Assembly (NCBI GenBank): GCA_019057735.1 | Contig: JAHLWV010000030.1 | Location: 1 to 15,285 of the forward strand | Direction: 5' to 3' | Length of the DNA: 15,285 nt | Source of the DNA: Promethearchaeota archaeon | GTDB lineage: Archaea; Asgardarchaeota; Lokiarchaeia; Sigynarchaeales; SOKP01 | Shown: positions 4,159-15,285 of the stretch, one piece after another | How the letters are laid out: every line of letters starts with the position of its first letter | How positions within the stretch are numbered: the stretch's first letter is position 1 | Translations under genes and position numbers: made by a program | The notes under the pieces: generated by a model | The model's database searches: none | Seen by the model: only the letters and a program-made list of their open reading frames with translations | What the model was told of the DNA's origin: nothing

Positions 4159-6921
4159 TTACTGCATAAAGAGCATTTTACCTATAAAGCTTAGTAAATC
4201 GGTTACCTTTATTTTGTTTTTAAGTTCCTTATTTTCATTCAAATAGCAGTTAAAATGCGTTAAACACTTCGGACAGGTAGTAATTAAATAATCCGCCCCA
4301 GTTTCAATTGCTTGTTTTATTCTTGACGCTTGTAGTAGTTTGGAATTTTGATTGCATGAAATGTAGGCCGAAACGCCGCAACAATCAGCATCTACCCGAT
4401 TATTTTCCATTTCTAGTAGTTTTATTCCTGGTATTTTATTCAAAACTTCACGAGGGGCGTCGTAAACTTTACTCATCCTACCGAGTCTACAAGGATCGTG
4501 ATAAGTAACCTTTACCTCTCCCAAATTTGGAAAAGATATATCTTCTAGAAGATTTTCTTTCAAGATATATTCGGAAATGTGGTAAATCTCAAAATCGAAT
4601 TCTTCGCTTTTTTTAAACAGTTTTTTATACTCATTTTTCCACGTATAATACCCTTCAGGGCAGCTGAATACAATTGTTTTGACACCAGCATCTTTAAACA
4701 ACTTGACATTATACCTCGCTAATTTCTCAAAGGATTCCACATCGCCTTGCCAAATTATATCGTGACCACAACATTTTTCTTCAAGTAAAACAACTGGCAC
4801 AATATCGTTCTGATTTAAGATTCCGATTACGCTTTTAGGGATTGTTAAATAATCTGGAGAGTTATAAGAGGACATATTAGCTTGGTTTCCATAGTTTGCA
4901 ATCATTACTCCCGAGGAATCTAAAGCTGCGTTATAATCTTCAGGGATTTGATCGCTATTACTACAACAATTACAATTTAAGCAACGATTTGCCTCTTTTA
5001 TTGCTTGTTCTTCAGTATATCCTAGCTCCATTTCATCAAAACATACCAATCTTTCCTTTCCGGGCATGAAATTCATTTCTTGACAAGAATTTACTTGAAT
5101 GTATTTTTTAGGGATAGTAGAACGCTTTAATTCCTTCATTCTAATCCTACTTTCTTTTAAATCAATTCCACGGAAGAAGCGATCGATTGAGTACGCTGCT
5201 TCTCTACCATTTCCTATAGCATCAACGGCACACATAAGCGAATTATTAATGATATCTCCACCCGCAAAAACTCCGGGAATGTTAGTTTCAAAAGTTACTT
5301 CATCAACTATAATTCTGCCTCGATCAATTTTTAACTTGTTTTCAGTTGCTGCATTAATAGGGACAACATCAAGTCCTTGCCCGATAGCAGTAACGACATA
5401 ATCTACAACGATCTTAAAATCAGAATCTTCCACTTTATTCAAAGGTCTTCTTCCTGTTTCAGGATCTGGTTCTCCCCATTCAATTTTATAACAATTTAGG
5501 GCTAATTTTCCATTAGGTTCTTGGGTTATGTTTTTTGTCGAAGTAGTAAAATGATATTCCATTACCTCTCTCTCGGCTTCGTGCAAATCTTTAAGCACAT
5601 TTTTAAGCGCTTCCTCAGTTAATATATCTACGAAATCAGCTTTTGTAGCACCTAACCTTACAGCGGTTTCGCCTACATCAACGGCGACTGCGCCTCCCCC
5701 GATAATTCCAAAAGTTTTACCCTTAAATTCTTCGGGGTCTTCTACACAACCATATTTTCGATCCAAGAGAAAATCTATAGCAACATGAACGTTAGGTAAA
5801 TCCTCACCTTCGAGTCGCAAAGTTTTTGGTACATACAGACCTACCGCAATAAAAACAGCTTCAAACCCTCCTTTTTTAATATCATCTAGAGTAAAATTAG
5901 CACCAAACTCTTTGTTTAGTACAATTTCAACGCCCATACTTTTTATGAAATCTACATCGTGGTCTAAAGCCTCGTCAGATAGCCTATATTGAGGGACACC
6001 ATACCTTACGACTCCACCAGTTTTGTCACCTTTTTCATAGATTGTTGGTTTATACCCCATTCTCGCGAGGTAGTAAGCTGCAGATAAACCTCCTGGTCCT
6101 GCCCCGATTATAGCTACTTTTTCTTTGGTTTGTTTAACTGGTTTTATTTTGCTATTGTTTGGATTTGAAGCTTCATAGTCAGATACAAAACGTTTTAATT
6201 CTCGTATTGCAACAGGATCATCGTGATGTTGACGATTACAATTCAAAGCACACTGAGCTGTGCAAATTCTTCCACATAAATAAGGTAAGGGGTTCATTTC
6301 TCTTATCAAATCGATAGATTCTTGAAATTTTCCTTCAGAGATTAATGACACATATCCTTGAACATCCACTCCAGCGGGACAGCCTACAACGCAAGGTGCA
6401 GTCCCAGTTAAAAATGGTACGCAACCCATAAAGTAAGCGAGTTCCCCTTCGCTTTTTATTTTCAATCCGGTTCCTTCTAAGAATCCAAGCTTATTGGTGA
6501 ATTTTATCTTATCGTCTGCCATTAATTTTGGTATACTGGAATATACCCTATCGTGATTACAACTTCGTAGAGTCTCTTGTAAAGGCTCGTATTCCGAAGT
6601 CAATGTTCGAAGTTCCTTTATAATCTCAGTGAAGTTAACACCAGTCTTACCTTTAGTCATTGGGCAATATTCGGTGCACAACCCACATGTTAGACAGTCC
6701 CAAATATTATTATTCTTTAGTGCTTCCTCAGGTGATAAGAATGATAAATCTGTAATCAAATTTCTAGGATAAAATAGGTCTAAGTAAGACACTGGACATA
6801 CATTTACGCACCGATTGCAATTATAACAATAGTTTGCGTTAGCAATGACATTTTTTATGATATCGCTAGAGCGTATCTTATCGGCTTTCTTATTTTGTGT
6901 TGTATCCGTAGTTTCAGTCAT
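4159..6921 (-). CDS. HdrC–NfnB–HdrD-type fusion (flavin module nested in a CCG domain)
   Basis: A 920-aa multidomain redox protein. Residues 32-86 are an HdrC-type ferredoxin (CYNCNRCVNVCP, CLTCGLCTEYCP). ELAYFMGC at 160-167 is the opening strand and cysteine of an HdrD-type CCG domain. Residues ~172-670 are an NfnB/GltD-like module: clusters APCVVGCP and CGRICTAQCALNC, FAD loop IGAGPGGLS at 272-280, NADPH loop IGGGAVAVD at 407-415, GVFAGGDI at 550-557, and an extra cysteine group CLNCNCC at 647-653. From ~680 the CCG fold resumes (EEKCCG at 717-719, SCPEG at 753-757, the last Cys of CxxC missing). A complete second CCG domain follows (C811, CCG 847-849, CPKC 883-886). CCG domains in HdrB/HdrD hold noncubane clusters that reduce disulfides. 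The start ATG has no clear Shine-Dalgarno; the transcript may be nearly leaderless. First gene of the minus-strand operon. Substrate unknown. Confidence 0.85.
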   Translation of the reverse strand: MTETTDTTQNKKADKIRSSDIIKNVIANANYCYNCNRCVNVCPVSYLDLFYPRNLITDLSFLSPEEALKNNNIWDCLTCGLCTEYCPMTKGKTGVNFTEIIKELRTLTSEYEPLQETLRSCNHDRVYSSIPKLMADDKIKFTNKLGFLEGTGLKIKSEGELAYFMGCVPFLTGTAPCVVGCPAGVDVQGYVSLISEGKFQESIDLIREMNPLPYLCGRICTAQCALNCNRQHHDDPVAIRELKRFVSDYEASNPNNSKIKPVKQTKEKVAIIGAGPGGLSAAYYLARMGYKPTIYEKGDKTGGVVRYGVPQYRLSDEALDHDVDFIKSMGVEIVLNKEFGANFTLDDIKKGGFEAVFIAVGLYVPKTLRLEGEDLPNVHVAIDFLLDRKYGCVEDPEEFKGKTFGIIGGGAVAVDVGETAVRLGATKADFVDILTEEALKNVLKDLHEAEREVMEYHFTTSTKNITQEPNGKLALNCYKIEWGEPDPETGRRPLNKVEDSDFKIVVDYVVTAIGQGLDVVPINAATENKLKIDRGRIIVDEVTFETNIPGVFAGGDIINNSLMCAVDAIGNGREAAYSIDRFFRGIDLKESRIRMKELKRSTIPKKYIQVNSCQEMNFMPGKERLVCFDEMELGYTEEQAIKEANRCLNCNCCSNSDQIPEDYNAALDSSGVMIANYGNQANMSSYNSPDYLTIPKSVIGILNQNDIVPVVLLEEKCCGHDIIWQGDVESFEKLARYNVKLFKDAGVKTIVFSCPEGYYTWKNEYKKLFKKSEEFDFEIYHISEYILKENLLEDISFPNLGEVKVTYHDPCRLGRMSKVYDAPREVLNKIPGIKLLEMENNRVDADCCGVSAYISCNQNSKLLQASRIKQAIETGADYLITTCPKCLTHFNCYLNENKELKNKIKVTDLLSFIGKMLFMQ

Positions 6922-9974: not shown

Positions 9975-11951
9975 ATGTCTGGAAATCAGACCAAGGATAA
10001 AAATGAAATAAAAAAAACAGTTGTTGGTGTATTTGTTTGTCGCTGAGGTATCAACATAGCTGGAATACTAGACGTACCTGGAATTGTCGAAGAACTCAAT
10101 AAATTAGAAGGTGTTAAAGCTTTCGAGTATATGTCTATGTGAACTGAGGGTGGATCAGAGTATATCAAGGAACAGATCGAGGAATTTAGACTCGAAAGAA
10201 TCGTTGTTGCCGCTTGTACTCCAAAAACTCATCAACCTGTCTTTCACGCAATTTTAACTGAAGCAGGCATCCCCCCAAGATATTTAGAATTTGTGAATAT
10301 CAGAGAACACTGTAGTTTTGTTCACCAAGCTCTTGAAGTAAGAGAAAAAGCTGTTAAAAAAGCTATCGAACTTATAAGGGCGGGAATAGCGCGATCAAGA
10401 CTATTAGAAAACGTACCCACTAAAACCGTTCCTGTAACACCTGCTGCTTTAGTAGTAGGTGGAGGCATTGCAGGGTTGTCAACTGCTATAGATTTAGGAG
10501 ACAAGGGATTTAAAGTGTACTTAGTTGAAAAGAAAACTACCATTGGCGGAAGAATGAGCCAGTTAGATAGAACTTTCCCAACTGACGATTGCTCTATATG
10601 AATTCTCGGTCCTAAAATGTTGGAGGCGAACCGTCATCCAAATATCGAGATCCTATCATACTCAGAAGTCGTGGAAGTCGATGGATACATTGGAAACTTC
10701 AGAATAAAAGTTAAAAGGAACTCCCGATTCGTAAGTGAGAAAACATGTACCGGATGTGGAGCTTGTACTGAGGTTTGCCCAATTTTCATCCCTAACAGTT
10801 TTGACGAAGGATTATCTGCGAGAAAATGTATTGACATCGCTTTTGCTCAGGCAGTTCCTGCGATTTATGATATAAATCGAGAGACTTGTGTGGAATGTTT
10901 TGCTTGTGTTGATGCTTGCGAAGAGGATTCAATCGATTTTAGCATTCAAGATGAGTATATTGATCTGGAAGTTGGAACAATAGTAGTGGCAACGGGATGG
11001 GATATTTACGAAGGAGATGATTATGGATATGGAACGTACGAGAATGTAATCAACCAAATTCAACTGGAAAGAATATTAGCCCCCAACGGGCCGACATTCG
11101 GACACTTAAAACGACCATCTGACGGAAAACGCCCTACAAAAATCTTGTTTATTAATTGTGTAGGGAGTAGGGATGTATCGAAAAACGCTTATTGCTCGGT
11201 TATATGCTGCAATCTATCGCTTAAAAACTCTAAATTAATTAAATCGGAGTATCCTGATTCAAATATCGTATGCACATATATAGATATGAGATGCGCTGGT
11301 AAAGATTACGAAGAATACTATAGACGTTCGAGAGAAGCGGGAATAATATTTCTTAAAGGATTAGTTGGAGAAATCCAAGAAGATCCATTAACGAAGAATT
11401 TAACGGTTAAGTTTGAACCAGTTGGAACAGATACAGTAGTTACCATGGAAGCTCATATGGTAGTTCTATCGTCAGCATCGCTCCCTTCTAAAGGTACCTT
11501 AGAAATCGCTAAAATAATGAAGATGGAGAAAAGTCCTGATGGATTTTTAAAGGAATTTCACCCTCGATTAGATCCAATTAGCACAAAAACTATGGGTGTT
11601 TACATCGCAGGCTCGGCTCAAGGACAAAAAGAAATTGATAAAGCCGTAAGTCAAGCAAGAGGTGCTGCATCTGCTGCCAGTATTCCTATGGGCAGAGGCG
11701 AACACACGATGGAATTAATTCGTGCTACTCCAATAGATGAGAGATGTGCGAAATGTTATAAATGCATTGAGATCTGTCCATATTACGCAATTTCTGTAAA
11801 CGAAATTGGTGCGTTAGTTGTTGACATCATTAAATGTCGTGGTTGTGGATCTTGCACAGCAATTTGTCCATCGAAAGCAATTGAACTGACTTATTTTAGA
11901 GACGATCAGTATATGGCATTAATTGACGAATTACTTCCAATGGAGGAATAG
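9975..11951 (+). CDS. hdrA: HdrA, heterodisulfide reductase subunit A, selenoprotein with three Sec residues
   Basis: One continuous 658-aa frame interrupted only by three TGA codons, at residues 24, 56 and 209. Each replaces a family cysteine: VCRUG for VCHCG, YMSMUTEGG for the YxxMCS-type site, and DDCSIUILGPKM for DCSICILAPKM. Reading through restores a full-length HdrA. Domains: N-terminal domain (~15-145); FAD-binding thioredoxin-reductase-like domain (VVGGGIAGLS at ~160); an inserted ferredoxin (C258-C268, C305-C315); an inner cysteine group (C407, C411, C412); and a C-terminal two-[4Fe-4S] ferredoxin (C591-C601, C621-C631). HdrA is the flavin-based electron-bifurcating subunit of Hdr complexes, in the cytoplasm. 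The start ATG has AAGGTG five bases upstream. mvhD follows after 13 bases. No HdrB or HdrC gene adjoins it, unlike methanogen operons. Sec is inferred from codon position, not proven. Confidence 0.93.
10044..10046 (+). other. In-frame UGA, predicted Sec24 of HdrA
   Basis: Falls at the second cysteine of the family VCxCG motif, giving C22-R-U24-G. The flanking protein is collinear with HdrA on both sides, so it is neither a stop nor a frameshift. It is probably a ligand or redox partner of the N-terminal iron-sulfur site. Confidence 0.88.
10140..10142 (+). other. In-frame UGA, predicted Sec56 of HdrA
   Basis: Replaces the single cysteine that follows the YxxM segment of the HdrA N-terminal domain (here YMSMU). 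Together with Sec24 it converts two of the three N-terminal domain cysteines to selenocysteine. Confidence 0.85.
10599..10601 (+). other. In-frame UGA, predicted Sec209 of HdrA
   Basis: Replaces the second cysteine of the DCSIC motif next to the FAD domain. This is the site where some methanogen HdrA proteins also carry Sec, so it is the best precedented of the three. Confidence 0.92.
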
Positions 11952-11964
11952 AGAGGTAATAGAA

Positions 11965-12411
11965 ATGGCAGAAGAACAAGACATTAAAATTATAGCATTT
12001 CTGTGCTGGAAATGAGGTTATGGTTCCGCTGATATGGCTGGAACTATTCGCGCTCAGTATCCCTTATCTATCAGAGTGGTTTTAGTTCCGTGTTCCGGTA
12101 GAATTGGTTCCGATATGGTCATGCGATCGTTTGGTAGAGGTGCTGATGGCGTAATGATTGTTGGATGATACCCTAAAGAATGCGATTATGAAACGGGGAA
12201 CTATGTTGCTTACCGGCAAGTTGAGTATTTAAAAGAAGTGCTCAAATCTATGGGGCTCAGTGAAGAACGTATAATGTTTGGGTATTGTACGGCAGCCGAG
12301 GGACAAAAGTTTCAACAAGAAGCGATAAAATTCGATAAACTTATACAAAAATTAGGACCTAATCCACTAAAAACTAAAGACTCACCAACAACAAAAAAAG
12401 CGAAAGCTTAA
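11965..12411 (+). CDS. mvhD: MvhD/VhuD-like [2Fe-2S] adaptor, selenoprotein with two Sec residues
   Basis: A 148-aa MvhD family protein visible only when two TGA codons (residues 17 and 68) are read through. Family landmarks: AFLCWKU replaces the AFCCNWC opening, followed by GYGSADMAGTIR; PCSGR at 42-46; GADGVMIVGU with YPKECDYETGNY, replacing GCHPGDCHY...GNY. The remaining family cysteines C14, C43 and C73 are kept. MvhD carries a [2Fe-2S] cluster and passes electrons from a dehydrogenase or hydrogenase to HdrA; in methanogens the Sec form is VhuD, and BamF is a related selenoprotein. The ATG has AGAGGT seven bases ahead and lies 13 bases after hdrA, so the two are cotranscribed. No hydrogenase genes adjoin it, so here the donor is probably the AOR module or the FrhB-like protein. 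The last ~15 residues are a lysine/threonine-rich tail. Confidence 0.92.
12013..12015 (+). other. In-frame UGA, predicted Sec17 of MvhD
   Basis: Occupies the last cysteine of the N-terminal CCxxC-type motif, the site that is Sec in the methanogen selenoprotein VhuD. A normal TGG tryptophan codon stands two codons earlier, which argues against UGA being read as tryptophan. Confidence 0.93.
12166..12168 (+). other. In-frame UGA, predicted Sec68 of MvhD
   Basis: Occupies the first cysteine of the family GCxPxxC motif (here GUYPKEC). Together with Sec17 it places selenium at two of the five conserved cysteine positions thought to surround the [2Fe-2S] cluster. Confidence 0.9.
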
Positions 12412-12416
12412 AATTA

Positions 12417-12489
12417 ATGTGTTAACTGATGAAGCTGAGTTAAAAAAACGAGAACTCAGTTGAAGAGATGGAAGCACCATACAACACAT
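12417..12489 (+). promoter_or_regulatory. SECIS-like RNA hairpin of eukaryotic type in the mvhD 3' UTR
   Basis: It starts six bases after the mvhD stop. Outer helix: ATGTGTT (12417-12423) with AACACAT (12483-12489), 7 of 7 pairs. Core: ATGA (12429-12432) on the 5' side and TGA (12461-12463) on the 3' side, allowing tandem sheared G·A/A·G pairs (G12431·A12463, A12432·G12462), the kink-turn hallmark of eukaryotic SECIS. Inner helix: 12433-12441 with 12453-12461, nine pairs including one G·U. Apical loop: 11 bases at 12442-12452, beginning with seven A residues where eukaryotic SECIS have the conserved AA. It lacks the classic archaeal GAA/A arrangement with a short GC helix. The location downstream of the Sec codons fits archaeal and eukaryotic practice. 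The inner helix is shorter than in eukaryotes and the 3' side of the internal loop is long. Confidence 0.78.
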
Positions 12490-12512
12490 AAAAGAAATTT
12501 TAAAAAGTAATA

Positions 12513-12527
12513 CTTATTTAAAATATA
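12513..12527 (+). promoter_or_regulatory. Candidate TATA box ahead of the FrhB-like gene
   Basis: CTTATTTAAAATATA lies about 65 bases before the ATG at 12588, followed by long A and T runs. If used, transcription starts near 12550 and the SECIS-bearing mRNA ends around here. The surrounding DNA is nearly all A and T, so the call is weak. Confidence 0.3.
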
Positions 12528-12587
12528 AAAAAAAATTTAAAAAAAAAATTTGAACAAAAGTTTTTATTAATTTGAGATTGAAATAAC

Positions 12588-13727
12588 ATGGATGCATTAG
12601 ATGAATACTTAATTAAGATTGAAGATTTTCCTAAGCTATTAGCTACGCTCTTGCAAGAAAAATTCGTAGATAAGATTATTGGAGCAAAACTAAAAGTGGA
12701 TAAGAAATCTGGCGCTATAGATAGATTTACGGTATCTCCAGTAATTGTTGAAAAGCCAGAAGACCTTACAACTTTTCCTTTAACAAATTTAATTGCATAT
12801 GGATACGCTAGAACTGATACAGCTGCGAAATTCTTACATAAATCAGTTGATGGGGCTAAGAACGAAAAAGTCGGAGTTATTGCTCGTCCCTGTGATACTC
12901 GCGGAATAATTGAGTTAGTAAAGATTAGACAAATTAACATGGATAATCTTTTCATTATTGGCTTTGAGGATAGAGGAATGGTAATAAATGCTTCGCGTCA
13001 ATTGAAGAAAATAGAAGGACTCGATTTAACTAAAGTGGTTAAAGAAAAAGTAGGCGATAATGGATTAATTCTTAAATTTGAAGATGGTAGCACTAAAGAA
13101 GTTGGATTAGATATAGCAGAGAATTGTACTCGTTGTATTAGGAAAGTTCCCGTTGTTGCTGATATAAGTGTTAGCGATCTTGTATTACCTATTGATTCAG
13201 ACGAAATTCTCCTAATAGTGTATTCAGATAAAGGCGCAGATCTCGTAGAAAAATCAAAGATCAACAAAAAACCATTACCAGAGGATATGAGAACAAAACA
13301 CGCCGAAGCTCTTAAAAAAATCAAAGACACTGCTTTAGCAAAGAGAGCAAAGGATTTAGAAGAATGGGACAAGCTTTCTCAGGAAGATAAATTGGAAAGG
13401 TTCCAAAAATGTACAATGTGTAATATGTGCATTCGTGGATGTCCAGTATGCTACTGCGTTGATTGTATTCTAATGAAGAAACGGAAGGAGAAGATCATTA
13501 ACAAGGAATCTTATCAATTAACAAGAATTGCTCATGTCGCAGACCGGTGCATAGAATGTGGCAACTGTGATAATAACTGCCCACAACACCTTCCGCTATC
13601 ACTTTACTTCCAATCGTTAAACGAATCCTTTAAGGAAAAATTTGGTTATAGCGCTGGTGAGAATCTAGAAGACATACCGTTTAGGTCTGGTAAAGCGATT
13701 AGTCAAATGGAATTAGAAAAAACATAA
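12588..13727 (+). CDS. FrhB/FdhB-like iron-sulfur oxidoreductase subunit
   Basis: A 379-aa protein. Residues ~90-220 resemble the C-terminal part of F420 hydrogenase/dehydrogenase beta subunits (VGVIARPCDTRGIIELVK, then FIIGFEDRG), followed by an extra pair NCTRC at 179-183. Residues 275-331 form a ferredoxin-type region: C275/278/281/285 (CTMCNMCIRGC) and C321/324/327/331 (CIECGNCDNNC), with three further cysteines at 288, 290 and 293 between them. The GGxxTxLL opening of canonical FrhB is absent, so F420 binding is uncertain; a flavin is likely. A long charged helix at ~228-275 joins the halves. Its position after mvhD suggests an electron input or output subunit of the HdrA-MvhD assembly. 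ATG start with a weak GAGATT upstream; no alternative start nearby. Function beyond electron transfer is not readable. Confidence 0.75.
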   Translation: MDALDEYLIKIEDFPKLLATLLQEKFVDKIIGAKLKVDKKSGAIDRFTVSPVIVEKPEDLTTFPLTNLIAYGYARTDTAAKFLHKSVDGAKNEKVGVIARPCDTRGIIELVKIRQINMDNLFIIGFEDRGMVINASRQLKKIEGLDLTKVVKEKVGDNGLILKFEDGSTKEVGLDIAENCTRCIRKVPVVADISVSDLVLPIDSDEILLIVYSDKGADLVEKSKINKKPLPEDMRTKHAEALKKIKDTALAKRAKDLEEWDKLSQEDKLERFQKCTMCNMCIRGCPVCYCVDCILMKKRKEKIINKESYQLTRIAHVADRCIECGNCDNNCPQHLPLSLYFQSLNESFKEKFGYSAGENLEDIPFRSGKAISQMELEKT

Positions 13728-14624: not shown

Positions 14625-14663
14625 ATCAGCAAATTACAATTGCAGTATGATGAGAGAATAAAA

Positions 14664-15285
14664 ATGAAAGATATTAGTAAAAAAATCTTACTATTTTTAA
14701 TACTTCAGATTACCTATCCAAACATATTCTATATTCTACTTGTTCCAGAAGTTTATACAGTATCCATTTATGTTTTATATTTGCTAATGAATTATGTAAT
14801 TGCTCTTGCAGATACATTGATACGCCCTCTAACGAAGGAAAGAAATCCTTCAAAAATATATGATTTCTTGATATTATTGATGTTTTTGTTATCACCATTC
14901 TTGTTGATTGCTGCTTTTTATGAGAATAAGCTACTAATATCATTGATACTACCATTCTGGGATAATCTTGTTGTTAGTTATATTGGGTTTGTCATTTATC
15001 TTTCAGCAGGCATCTTAGTAATTGTTGGACGAGTACAGCTTGGCAAGTTCGGTTCAGGTGAATTAATAACGGAGGAAGACCATAAACTCTATACCGAAGG
15101 AGTTTACAAATATATTCGGAATCCAATGTATTCTGGGGCATTAATTGCTGTTATTGGGTTCGGTTTAGTCTTTAGAAGTATAATTACGCTATTATTCGTT
15201 TCGATTTTCTATTTTATTTTGTTTAAAATGAGAATAAATGAAGAAGAAAGACTTCTTTTTGAGGTTTTTGGAGAAGAATTCACTA
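14664..15285 (+). CDS. Isoprenylcysteine carboxyl methyltransferase/phospholipid methyltransferase-like membrane protein, 5' part
   Basis: 207 codons are visible and the frame is open at the right edge. Several hydrophobic segments indicate an integral membrane protein: residues ~8-30, ~30-48, ~72-90, ~95-127 and ~160-185. The diagnostic stretch LYTEGVYKYIRNPMYSGALI matches the G-x-Y-x-x-x-R-H/N-P-x-Y core of the ICMT/PEMT family, which binds S-adenosylmethionine at the membrane surface. EEERLLFEVFGEEF then resembles the family's E-E-x-x-L-x-x-x-F-G-x-x-Y tail, so only the last residues are missing. The family methylates prenylated cysteine carboxyls in eukaryotes and lipids or other substrates in prokaryotes; the substrate here cannot be told. 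It looks unrelated to the redox cluster and has its own promoter-like box. Confidence 0.75.
   Translation, partial: MKDISKKILLFLILQITYPNIFYILLVPEVYTVSIYVLYLLMNYVIALADTLIRPLTKERNPSKIYDFLILLMFLLSPFLLIAAFYENKLLISLILPFWDNLVVSYIGFVIYLSAGILVIVGRVQLGKFGSGELITEEDHKLYTEGVYKYIRNPMYSGALIAVIGFGLVFRSIITLLFVSIFYFILFKMRINEEERLLFEVFGEEFT

Follow-up and report, generated by a model that had tools for sequence, protein, structure and literature searches.

The first report of the Asgard SECIS element is credited to Mariotti et al. (2016), and Huang 2024 (PMC11227280) describes type I "eSECIS-like" elements that are common to Asgard hdrA and frhD genes, drawn as two-stem models and including AUGA_AA variants. 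A 2022 review (PMC9499178), citing Mariotti 2016, gives two apical loops to most archaeal SECIS and only one to those of Lokiarchaeota. A lokiarchaeal SECIS was non-functional in M. maripaludis (PMC11881835). Up to now the change in SECIS architecture from archaea to eukaryotes has been told mainly through two characters, the GA core and the apical adenines. The comparison also draws on PMC9723677, PMC9622424, PMC13188914, PMC2746813, and PMC11291895.

In this work we have analyzed a stretch of 15,285 nt from a lokiarchaeal genome (Promethearchaeota archaeon, GCA_019057735.1, contig JAHLWV010000030.1), hereafter the window, in which positions 12417–12489 very probably form the SECIS of an hdrA–vhuD pair, a three-way junction that would recode three UGA of hdrA and two of vhuD as Sec. 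The element is of the published kind, Asgard type I eSECIS-like, and not new as a kind. A second hairpin, however, is a constant part of this element class and is absent from the published two-helix picture.

The hdrA–vhuD pair and the fold behind it

On its forward strand the window carries, in this order, genes for an aldehyde ferredoxin oxidoreductase, a ferredoxin-type protein, hdrA, vhuD, and two more iron-sulphur proteins. With TGA translated as U, the frame of hdrA is open over 658 codons (UGA at codons 24, 56, and 209) and that of vhuD over 148 codons (UGA at 17 and 68). Both products match their families once UGA is read through, and the frames are open only then. The vhuD product reaches 140.8 bits with Pfam FlpD, above the cut-off, and the hdrA product 749 bits with the HdrA2 model, below the curated cut-off of that model (1100). 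The closest match in the VhuD scan (91% identity) belongs to the Lokiarchaeota isolate bin41, and no VhuD relatives were found in viral contigs. Together the two genes hold five in-frame UGA, with the SECIS element behind the pair, starting 5 nt past the end of vhuD (Table 1); its core starts 18 nt past the vhuD stop. The sequence 3′ of the element is AT-rich, and at 14640–15284 an open frame with a match to isoprenylcysteine carboxyl methyltransferase (ICMT) is truncated by the edge of the window.

Table 1. Positions of the genes and element parts in the window, and of candidate selenoprotein loci in relatives.
Feature	Position	Strand	Remarks
hdrA	9975–11951	+	in-frame UGA at 10044–10046, 10140–10142, 10599–10601; stop TAG
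vhuD/frhD	11965–12411	+	in-frame UGA at 12013–12015, 12166–12168; stop TAA
SECIS outer helix, 5′ arm AUGUGUU	12417–12423	+	MFE; clade A, 92.5% of cells paired, 3/7 pairs changed on both sides
SECIS core AUGA	12429–12432	+	AUGA or GUGA placed in all relatives (placement demanded [AG]TGA)
Upper hairpin	12433–12461	+	9-bp helix 12433–12441/12453–12461, one G-U; 11-nt loop 12442–12452; MFE
SECIS core GA	12462–12463	+	faces 12431–12432 for tandem G-A pairs; sequence
Second (side) hairpin AUGG/CCAU	12468–12480	+	stems 12468–12471/12477–12480, loop AAGCA; MFE
SECIS outer helix, 3′ arm AACACAU	12483–12489	+	MFE; clade A covariation; perfect 7 bp with 12417–12423
S3 candidate loci	L136:1078–1554 (-), L238:239–709, L246, L249, L127, L138, L117, L134		
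S1 candidate loci	L213:510–704, L179:181–438 (-), L201, L211, L108, L119, L098, L175 and others		
S2 candidate loci	L236:210–320 (-), L223:1657–1773 (-), L122, L133, L209, L242, L244, L247		

The minimum free energy of 12412–12500 is -16.9 kcal/mol, whereas its shuffles average -8.6 (z -3.78) and none of 200 comes as low; for the wider segment 12400–12510 the z value was -2.82 and 3 of 200 shuffles were as low. The first-pass annotation, made from the sequence, had described an ATGA/TGA core able to form tandem G·A pairs, a 9-bp helix, an A-rich loop (here AAAAAAACGAG), and a separate perfect 7-bp outer helix, and both the sequence and the recovered fold bear it out at every one of these positions. 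The helices it named are real, but its two-helix description omitted the second hairpin, which lies within the outer helix and is present in the minimum free energy structure, making the element a three-way junction.

Relatives, covariation, and UGA-free paralogues

A protein scan for VhuD yielded 104 loci, the best 80 of which were kept and together with the window make 81. Among these best 80 of 104, UGA is found at the first vhuD site in all 80 and at the second in 79. A full-length hdrA frame with one to five UGA ends 11–37 nt before the vhuD match in 75 of the 81 loci (three UGA in 47). Behind 67 of the 81 VhuD genes, window included, we found a structure satisfying a loose descriptor (AUGA or GUGA, helix of 7–13 bp, loop of 8–20 nt, GA), compared to 5% of dinucleotide shuffles, and in the 14 misses the layout is present with mismatches or a bulge, as seen by a relaxed scan and by eye. 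The core was placed as AUGA_GA in 80 loci and GUGA_GA in one; placement demanded [AG]TGA and GA, so that 81/81 shows only that each locus allows such a placement. At the placed core, 8 or 9 of the 9 helix positions are paired in 67 loci, 7 in eight, and 4–5 in six, the latter having either a bulge that shifts the helix or a divergent element. In eight loci the first stop of the vhuD frame is the UGA of the core itself, and in four the frame runs into the upper helix (L027, L029, L030, L034, L050–L052, L058, and others).

By sequence, the elements split into clade A (41, including the window) and clade B (40). A joint MAFFT alignment misaligned the two clades and each was therefore modeled separately (R1 for clade A, R2 for clade B). 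With R1 there was no full match in clade B and one partial match (L054, E 0.24), and with R2 none at E 1 in clade A or the window. Since the models barely cross, the likeness between the clades rests on their shared layout and not on a single model. At one locus (L063, about 6455–6560) a clade B vhuD has a clade A element inserted after what remains of the clade B start, namely the stop codon and AUGA, and the flanks resemble those of L067; the SECIS seems to have been swapped there as a whole.

Within clade A (40 distinct rows) both sides changed in 7/9 pairs of the upper helix and 3/7 of the outer helix, with a covariation score of 0.225 against 0.137 for shuffled alignments and at most 0.071 for slid ones. 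The side hairpin is nearly invariant in this clade and is thus backed there by conservation, not by covariation. In clade B (39 rows) the changes affect 9/9 pairs of the upper, 2/5 of the outer, and 2/4 of the side helix (score 0.423, 0.177 shuffled, at most 0.108 slid); the 5′ arm of the outer helix is off by one in part of the rows of this alignment. With RNAalifold alone the outer helix went uncalled in both clades; the upper helix was called in both, and the side hairpin in clade A but not in clade B.

A further 85 elements from 80 fetched loci, having no 50-nt core in common with the training rows, were realigned with R2. Their cells are paired at 92.9% in the outer, 93.4% in the upper, and 84.6% in the side helix, the fourth pair of the side hairpin having letters in few of the 85 rows. 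Changes on both sides occur at 18/18 pairs, a count also reached by 26 of 500 shuffles and hence not telling alone, and the score is 0.772, with 0.196 for shuffled alignments and no more than 0.171 for slid ones. The helices are therefore conserved and covarying in homologous loci, the opposite of the outcome that the first-pass annotation had named as evidence against it, and its proposal of a SECIS-type element in an archaeal 3′ UTR holds.

The control was a set of 20 VhuD paralogues without in-frame UGA, from 17 genomes, among the matches listed. They represent a more distant VhuD type (42–48% identity to the VhuD of the window), and the UGA form is also found in at least 16 of these 17 genomes, among the matches listed. 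Where the UGA form has CWKU the paralogues have CNWC, so the first vhuD UGA faces a Cys. No element was detected behind any of the 20 at E 1 with either R1 or R2, and the loose descriptor was satisfied behind one, which is the chance rate.

Genome-wide search, second hairpin, and candidate selenoproteins

SECISearch3 gave no significant result according to Huang 2024 (PMC11227280), and other papers used it and report elements; a covariance model of the element type now provides a search model. We ran R2 on six and then 22 genomes, all chosen for holding a VhuD locus of the protein scan, and every one of them had matches at E 0.001. Six of the genomes contained 3–10 elements each at E < 0.001, training-set VhuD members included. 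A wider draw of 148 Asgard genomes, under stricter filters, gave matches in 40. The upstream gene was read with UGA as U for 49 of 50 matches in the six genomes (four of them weak, E 0.008–0.5) and for the 115 top-scoring of 150 in the 22. Among the 162 parsed elements, 112 stand behind known selenoprotein types (VhuD, two further FrhD types, HdrA, PrxL, VhuU, and one SelD), 46 behind candidates, and four behind neither, a sorting done partly by eye. Their core is AUGA_GA in 119, AUGA_AA in 40, and GUGA_GA in three (the parser demanded GA or AA). In the best fit, which favored no loop length, the helix measures 9 bp in 154 elements and the loop 11 nt in 139. One locus (L223, G017:C10:33396–35727) packs three SECIS matches into about 1.5 kb, the genes ahead of them being of the zinc-ribbon miniprotein and PrxL types.

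What sets the second hairpin apart from chance is its loop. Any hairpin of at least 4 bp in the 24 nt past the core comes cheap (156 of the 162 elements, 85% of shuffles), and its mere presence was consequently dropped as evidence. A side hairpin with the G-Y loop motif, by comparison, occurs in 97% of the 162 elements versus 38% of shuffles. All 85 realigned elements have the side-loop G, and the next base is C in 75 of them and U in 10; the apical loop has AAA in 85/85 with G as last loop base in 84. As R2 both chose and aligned these 85, the protein-found set gives a fairer count: 80 of the 81 VhuD loci have a side hairpin with a G-[CU] loop, versus 27% after dinucleotide shuffling of the same 22 nt (67 distinct segments). 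All three helices appear in the unconstrained minimum free energy fold of 56/81 loci, compared to 64/405 with shuffled flanks. No description of this hairpin was found in the searchable literature. With the conserved second arm there is a third character besides the GA core and apical adenines, and it offers mutagenesis a concrete target.

When the element type is used for searching, it leads to candidate selenoproteins not included in the published family lists as excerpted, one of them with adjacent Sec-Sec. The latter (S3), of about 160–175 aa, has an adjacent UGA-UGA (GCUU or ADUUAD) in eight loci, followed by the same SECIS type. It has 104 database relatives; of the 23 read, 15 end at the UGA-UGA site and eight pass it with W W, which we take to be UGA read as Trp by the source. 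All 15 alignment rows that pass the site keep RL..FK..GK..F.HY, which argues that it is translated through. Three members tested had no Pfam or NCBIfam match, and the fold, predicted with confidence (pLDDT 85), had no match in the PDB at E 0.001 or better.

The candidate S1 proteins (about 50–90 aa), putative small membrane proteins, have one hydrophobic helix and an acidic or Gly-rich (Gly/Asp-rich) linker, then U, and their genes precede this type of SECIS; in layout they presumably resemble eukaryotic SelK/SelS. Their Cys is at U+2 in 13 and at U+4 in four of 19 core members, six further members being looser. One member has 31 database relatives, which are mostly about 47 aa long; five were read, of which three stop short of U and two continue through it with W. 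Beyond UGA, 51 of 151 differences fall at the third codon position, no excess, and the tail beyond U-x-C is thus unsupported by this test. The putative S2 family consists of zinc-ribbon-like miniproteins of about 40 aa with two Cys knuckles, which end in K-UGA-stop in 8/8 loci; in L223 a UGA takes the place of a knuckle Cys. A weak candidate family, S4, consists of four miniproteins of two helices each, with U in between (L194, L216, L124); at L194 two such genes stand in tandem, each with its own element. None of S1–S4 appears in the text of Huang 2024 (PMC11227280) or in what the excerpts of a May 2026 review list as archaeal families.

A broader reading, to which we give about equal chances of being right or wrong, is that the lokiarchaeal SECIS is two-armed, with a eukaryote-like kink-turn hairpin and a second hairpin whose invariant G-Y loop would dock the Sec machinery. 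Eukaryotic SECIS would then have arisen by loss of the second arm, and the single apical loop reported for Lokiarchaeota would hence be wrong. In the same reading the element type would also mark undescribed selenoprotein families, namely the tandem Sec-Sec protein, the small membrane-anchored U-x-C proteins, and the zinc-ribbon miniprotein ending in Sec.

Proposed decoding of UGA and comparison with known SECIS types

In the mechanism we propose, hdrA and vhuD would share one message whose 3′ end folds into the three-way junction, the outer helix closing both the kink-turn-like hairpin (AUGA_GA core, 9 bp, A-rich loop) and the small hairpin with the G-Y loop, which may itself have a role. A kink-turn binder would sit on the core, most likely a protein of the L7Ae/L30e family replacing the absent SBP2 (no sbp2 gene in Asgard genomes according to Huang 2024, PMC11227280), and would recruit EFSec, carrying Sec-tRNA(Sec), to ribosomes that have reached a UGA. 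The three UGA of hdrA and two of vhuD would then be read as Sec, with the element acting across the hdrA stop over up to 2.4 kb. Both L30 and L7A of eukaryotes are SECIS binders, and the domain of SBP2 groups with L30 (PMC2746813); by analogy, L30e as reader is weakened by the M. maripaludis L30, which did not bind the methanogen SECIS (PMC9499178). L7Ae family members number two in five of six relatives' genomes and three in the other, so there is no clear extra SECIS binder. Above the Rfam cut-off, tRNA-Sec was found in two of the six, and the closest relative's genome had no match at all in this model search, which matched in all 14 control genomes (five above the cut-off) and thus carries little weight.

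That the element serves both genes is the most likely arrangement. It might instead serve vhuD only, the UGA of hdrA, 1.8–2.4 kb upstream in another cistron, being decoded via another signal; the farthest one, 2.4 kb from the SECIS core, does exceed the range of 70–1,500 nt given for archaeal SECIS by the review (PMC9499178). We regard this as unlikely, given the adjacency of hdrA and vhuD in 75/81 loci and the result that R1 and R2 found no second element ahead of the two genes or between them in the 81 sources, a search that elements of another type would escape. Huang 2024 (PMC11227280) likewise concludes that one element is common to hdrA and frhD.

Recoding itself could be doubted if the structure were a terminator-like or chance hairpin, with UGA as stops and the genes broken. 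A position just past the last gene and ahead of AT-rich sequence would suit such a hairpin, but not the near-fixed geometry in 162 parsed elements, the covariation in clades A and B and in 85 other elements, or the first UGA kept in all 80 relatives (best 80 of 104). The absence of the element behind the 20 UGA-free paralogues already contradicts this explanation, which we rejected on that control and consider highly improbable. A changed code, with UGA meaning an ordinary amino acid and the RNA being incidental, would also leave the frames open once UGA is read through. It can hardly be credited, since UGA faces Cys in the paralogues, the element stands behind UGA-bearing genes and not behind the 20 UGA-free ones, and some relatives' vhuD frames meet UGA as a likely stop beside the core; the Sec/Cys pairing with the paralogues led to its rejection.

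With SECIS recoding as the preferred reading, the element can be set beside the known types. Methanogen SECIS (eaSECIS) are similar in their 3′ UTR location, kink-turn-like motif, and use of one element for several UGA, but have a GAA_A bulge with G-C clamps, placed just beneath a short, G-C-rich upper stem, and an unconserved loop. In the window GAA (12462–12464) is separated from the AUGG side stem by GAG, and the methanogen type was rejected by eye for want of GAA_A at a G-C stem. Eukaryotic type I SECIS share the AUGA_GA core, apical adenines, and 3′ UTR location (PMC11227280, PMC2746813). The window element differs in its second hairpin and 9-bp upper helix. In eukaryotic SECIS, 11–12 nt lie between the core and the apical AA. 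No Rfam SECIS family matched at gathering score, nor at E up to 10 for 11900–12700. The earlier statement that the core is exactly the eukaryotic one must therefore be softened: GA core and apical adenines are eukaryote-like, but there is no Rfam SECIS match and the second hairpin is constant. The question of how the eukaryotic Sec system arose, which the element raises, has already been argued by Huang 2024 and, by citation only, by Mariotti 2016.

The Asgard eSECIS-like type I (Huang 2024) is the closest described system, being the same in place, in the core GA_[G/A]A, and in the sharing by hdrA and frhD. Its limits are an upper stem of 7–15 bp with at most two mismatches, a loop of 8–20 nt without ministem, an energy below -5 kcal/mol, and a position from 30 nt before to 600 nt after the point where a selenoprotein gene ends (3′ end). 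The window element has GA at 12431–12432 opposite GA at 12462–12463 for the core 5′-GA_[G/A]A-3′, 9 bp with no mismatch, an 11-nt loop, -16.9 kcal/mol, and its core 18 nt past the vhuD stop. The published model consists of two stems and an internal loop, whereas here a G-Y hairpin lies within the outer helix throughout the examined set.
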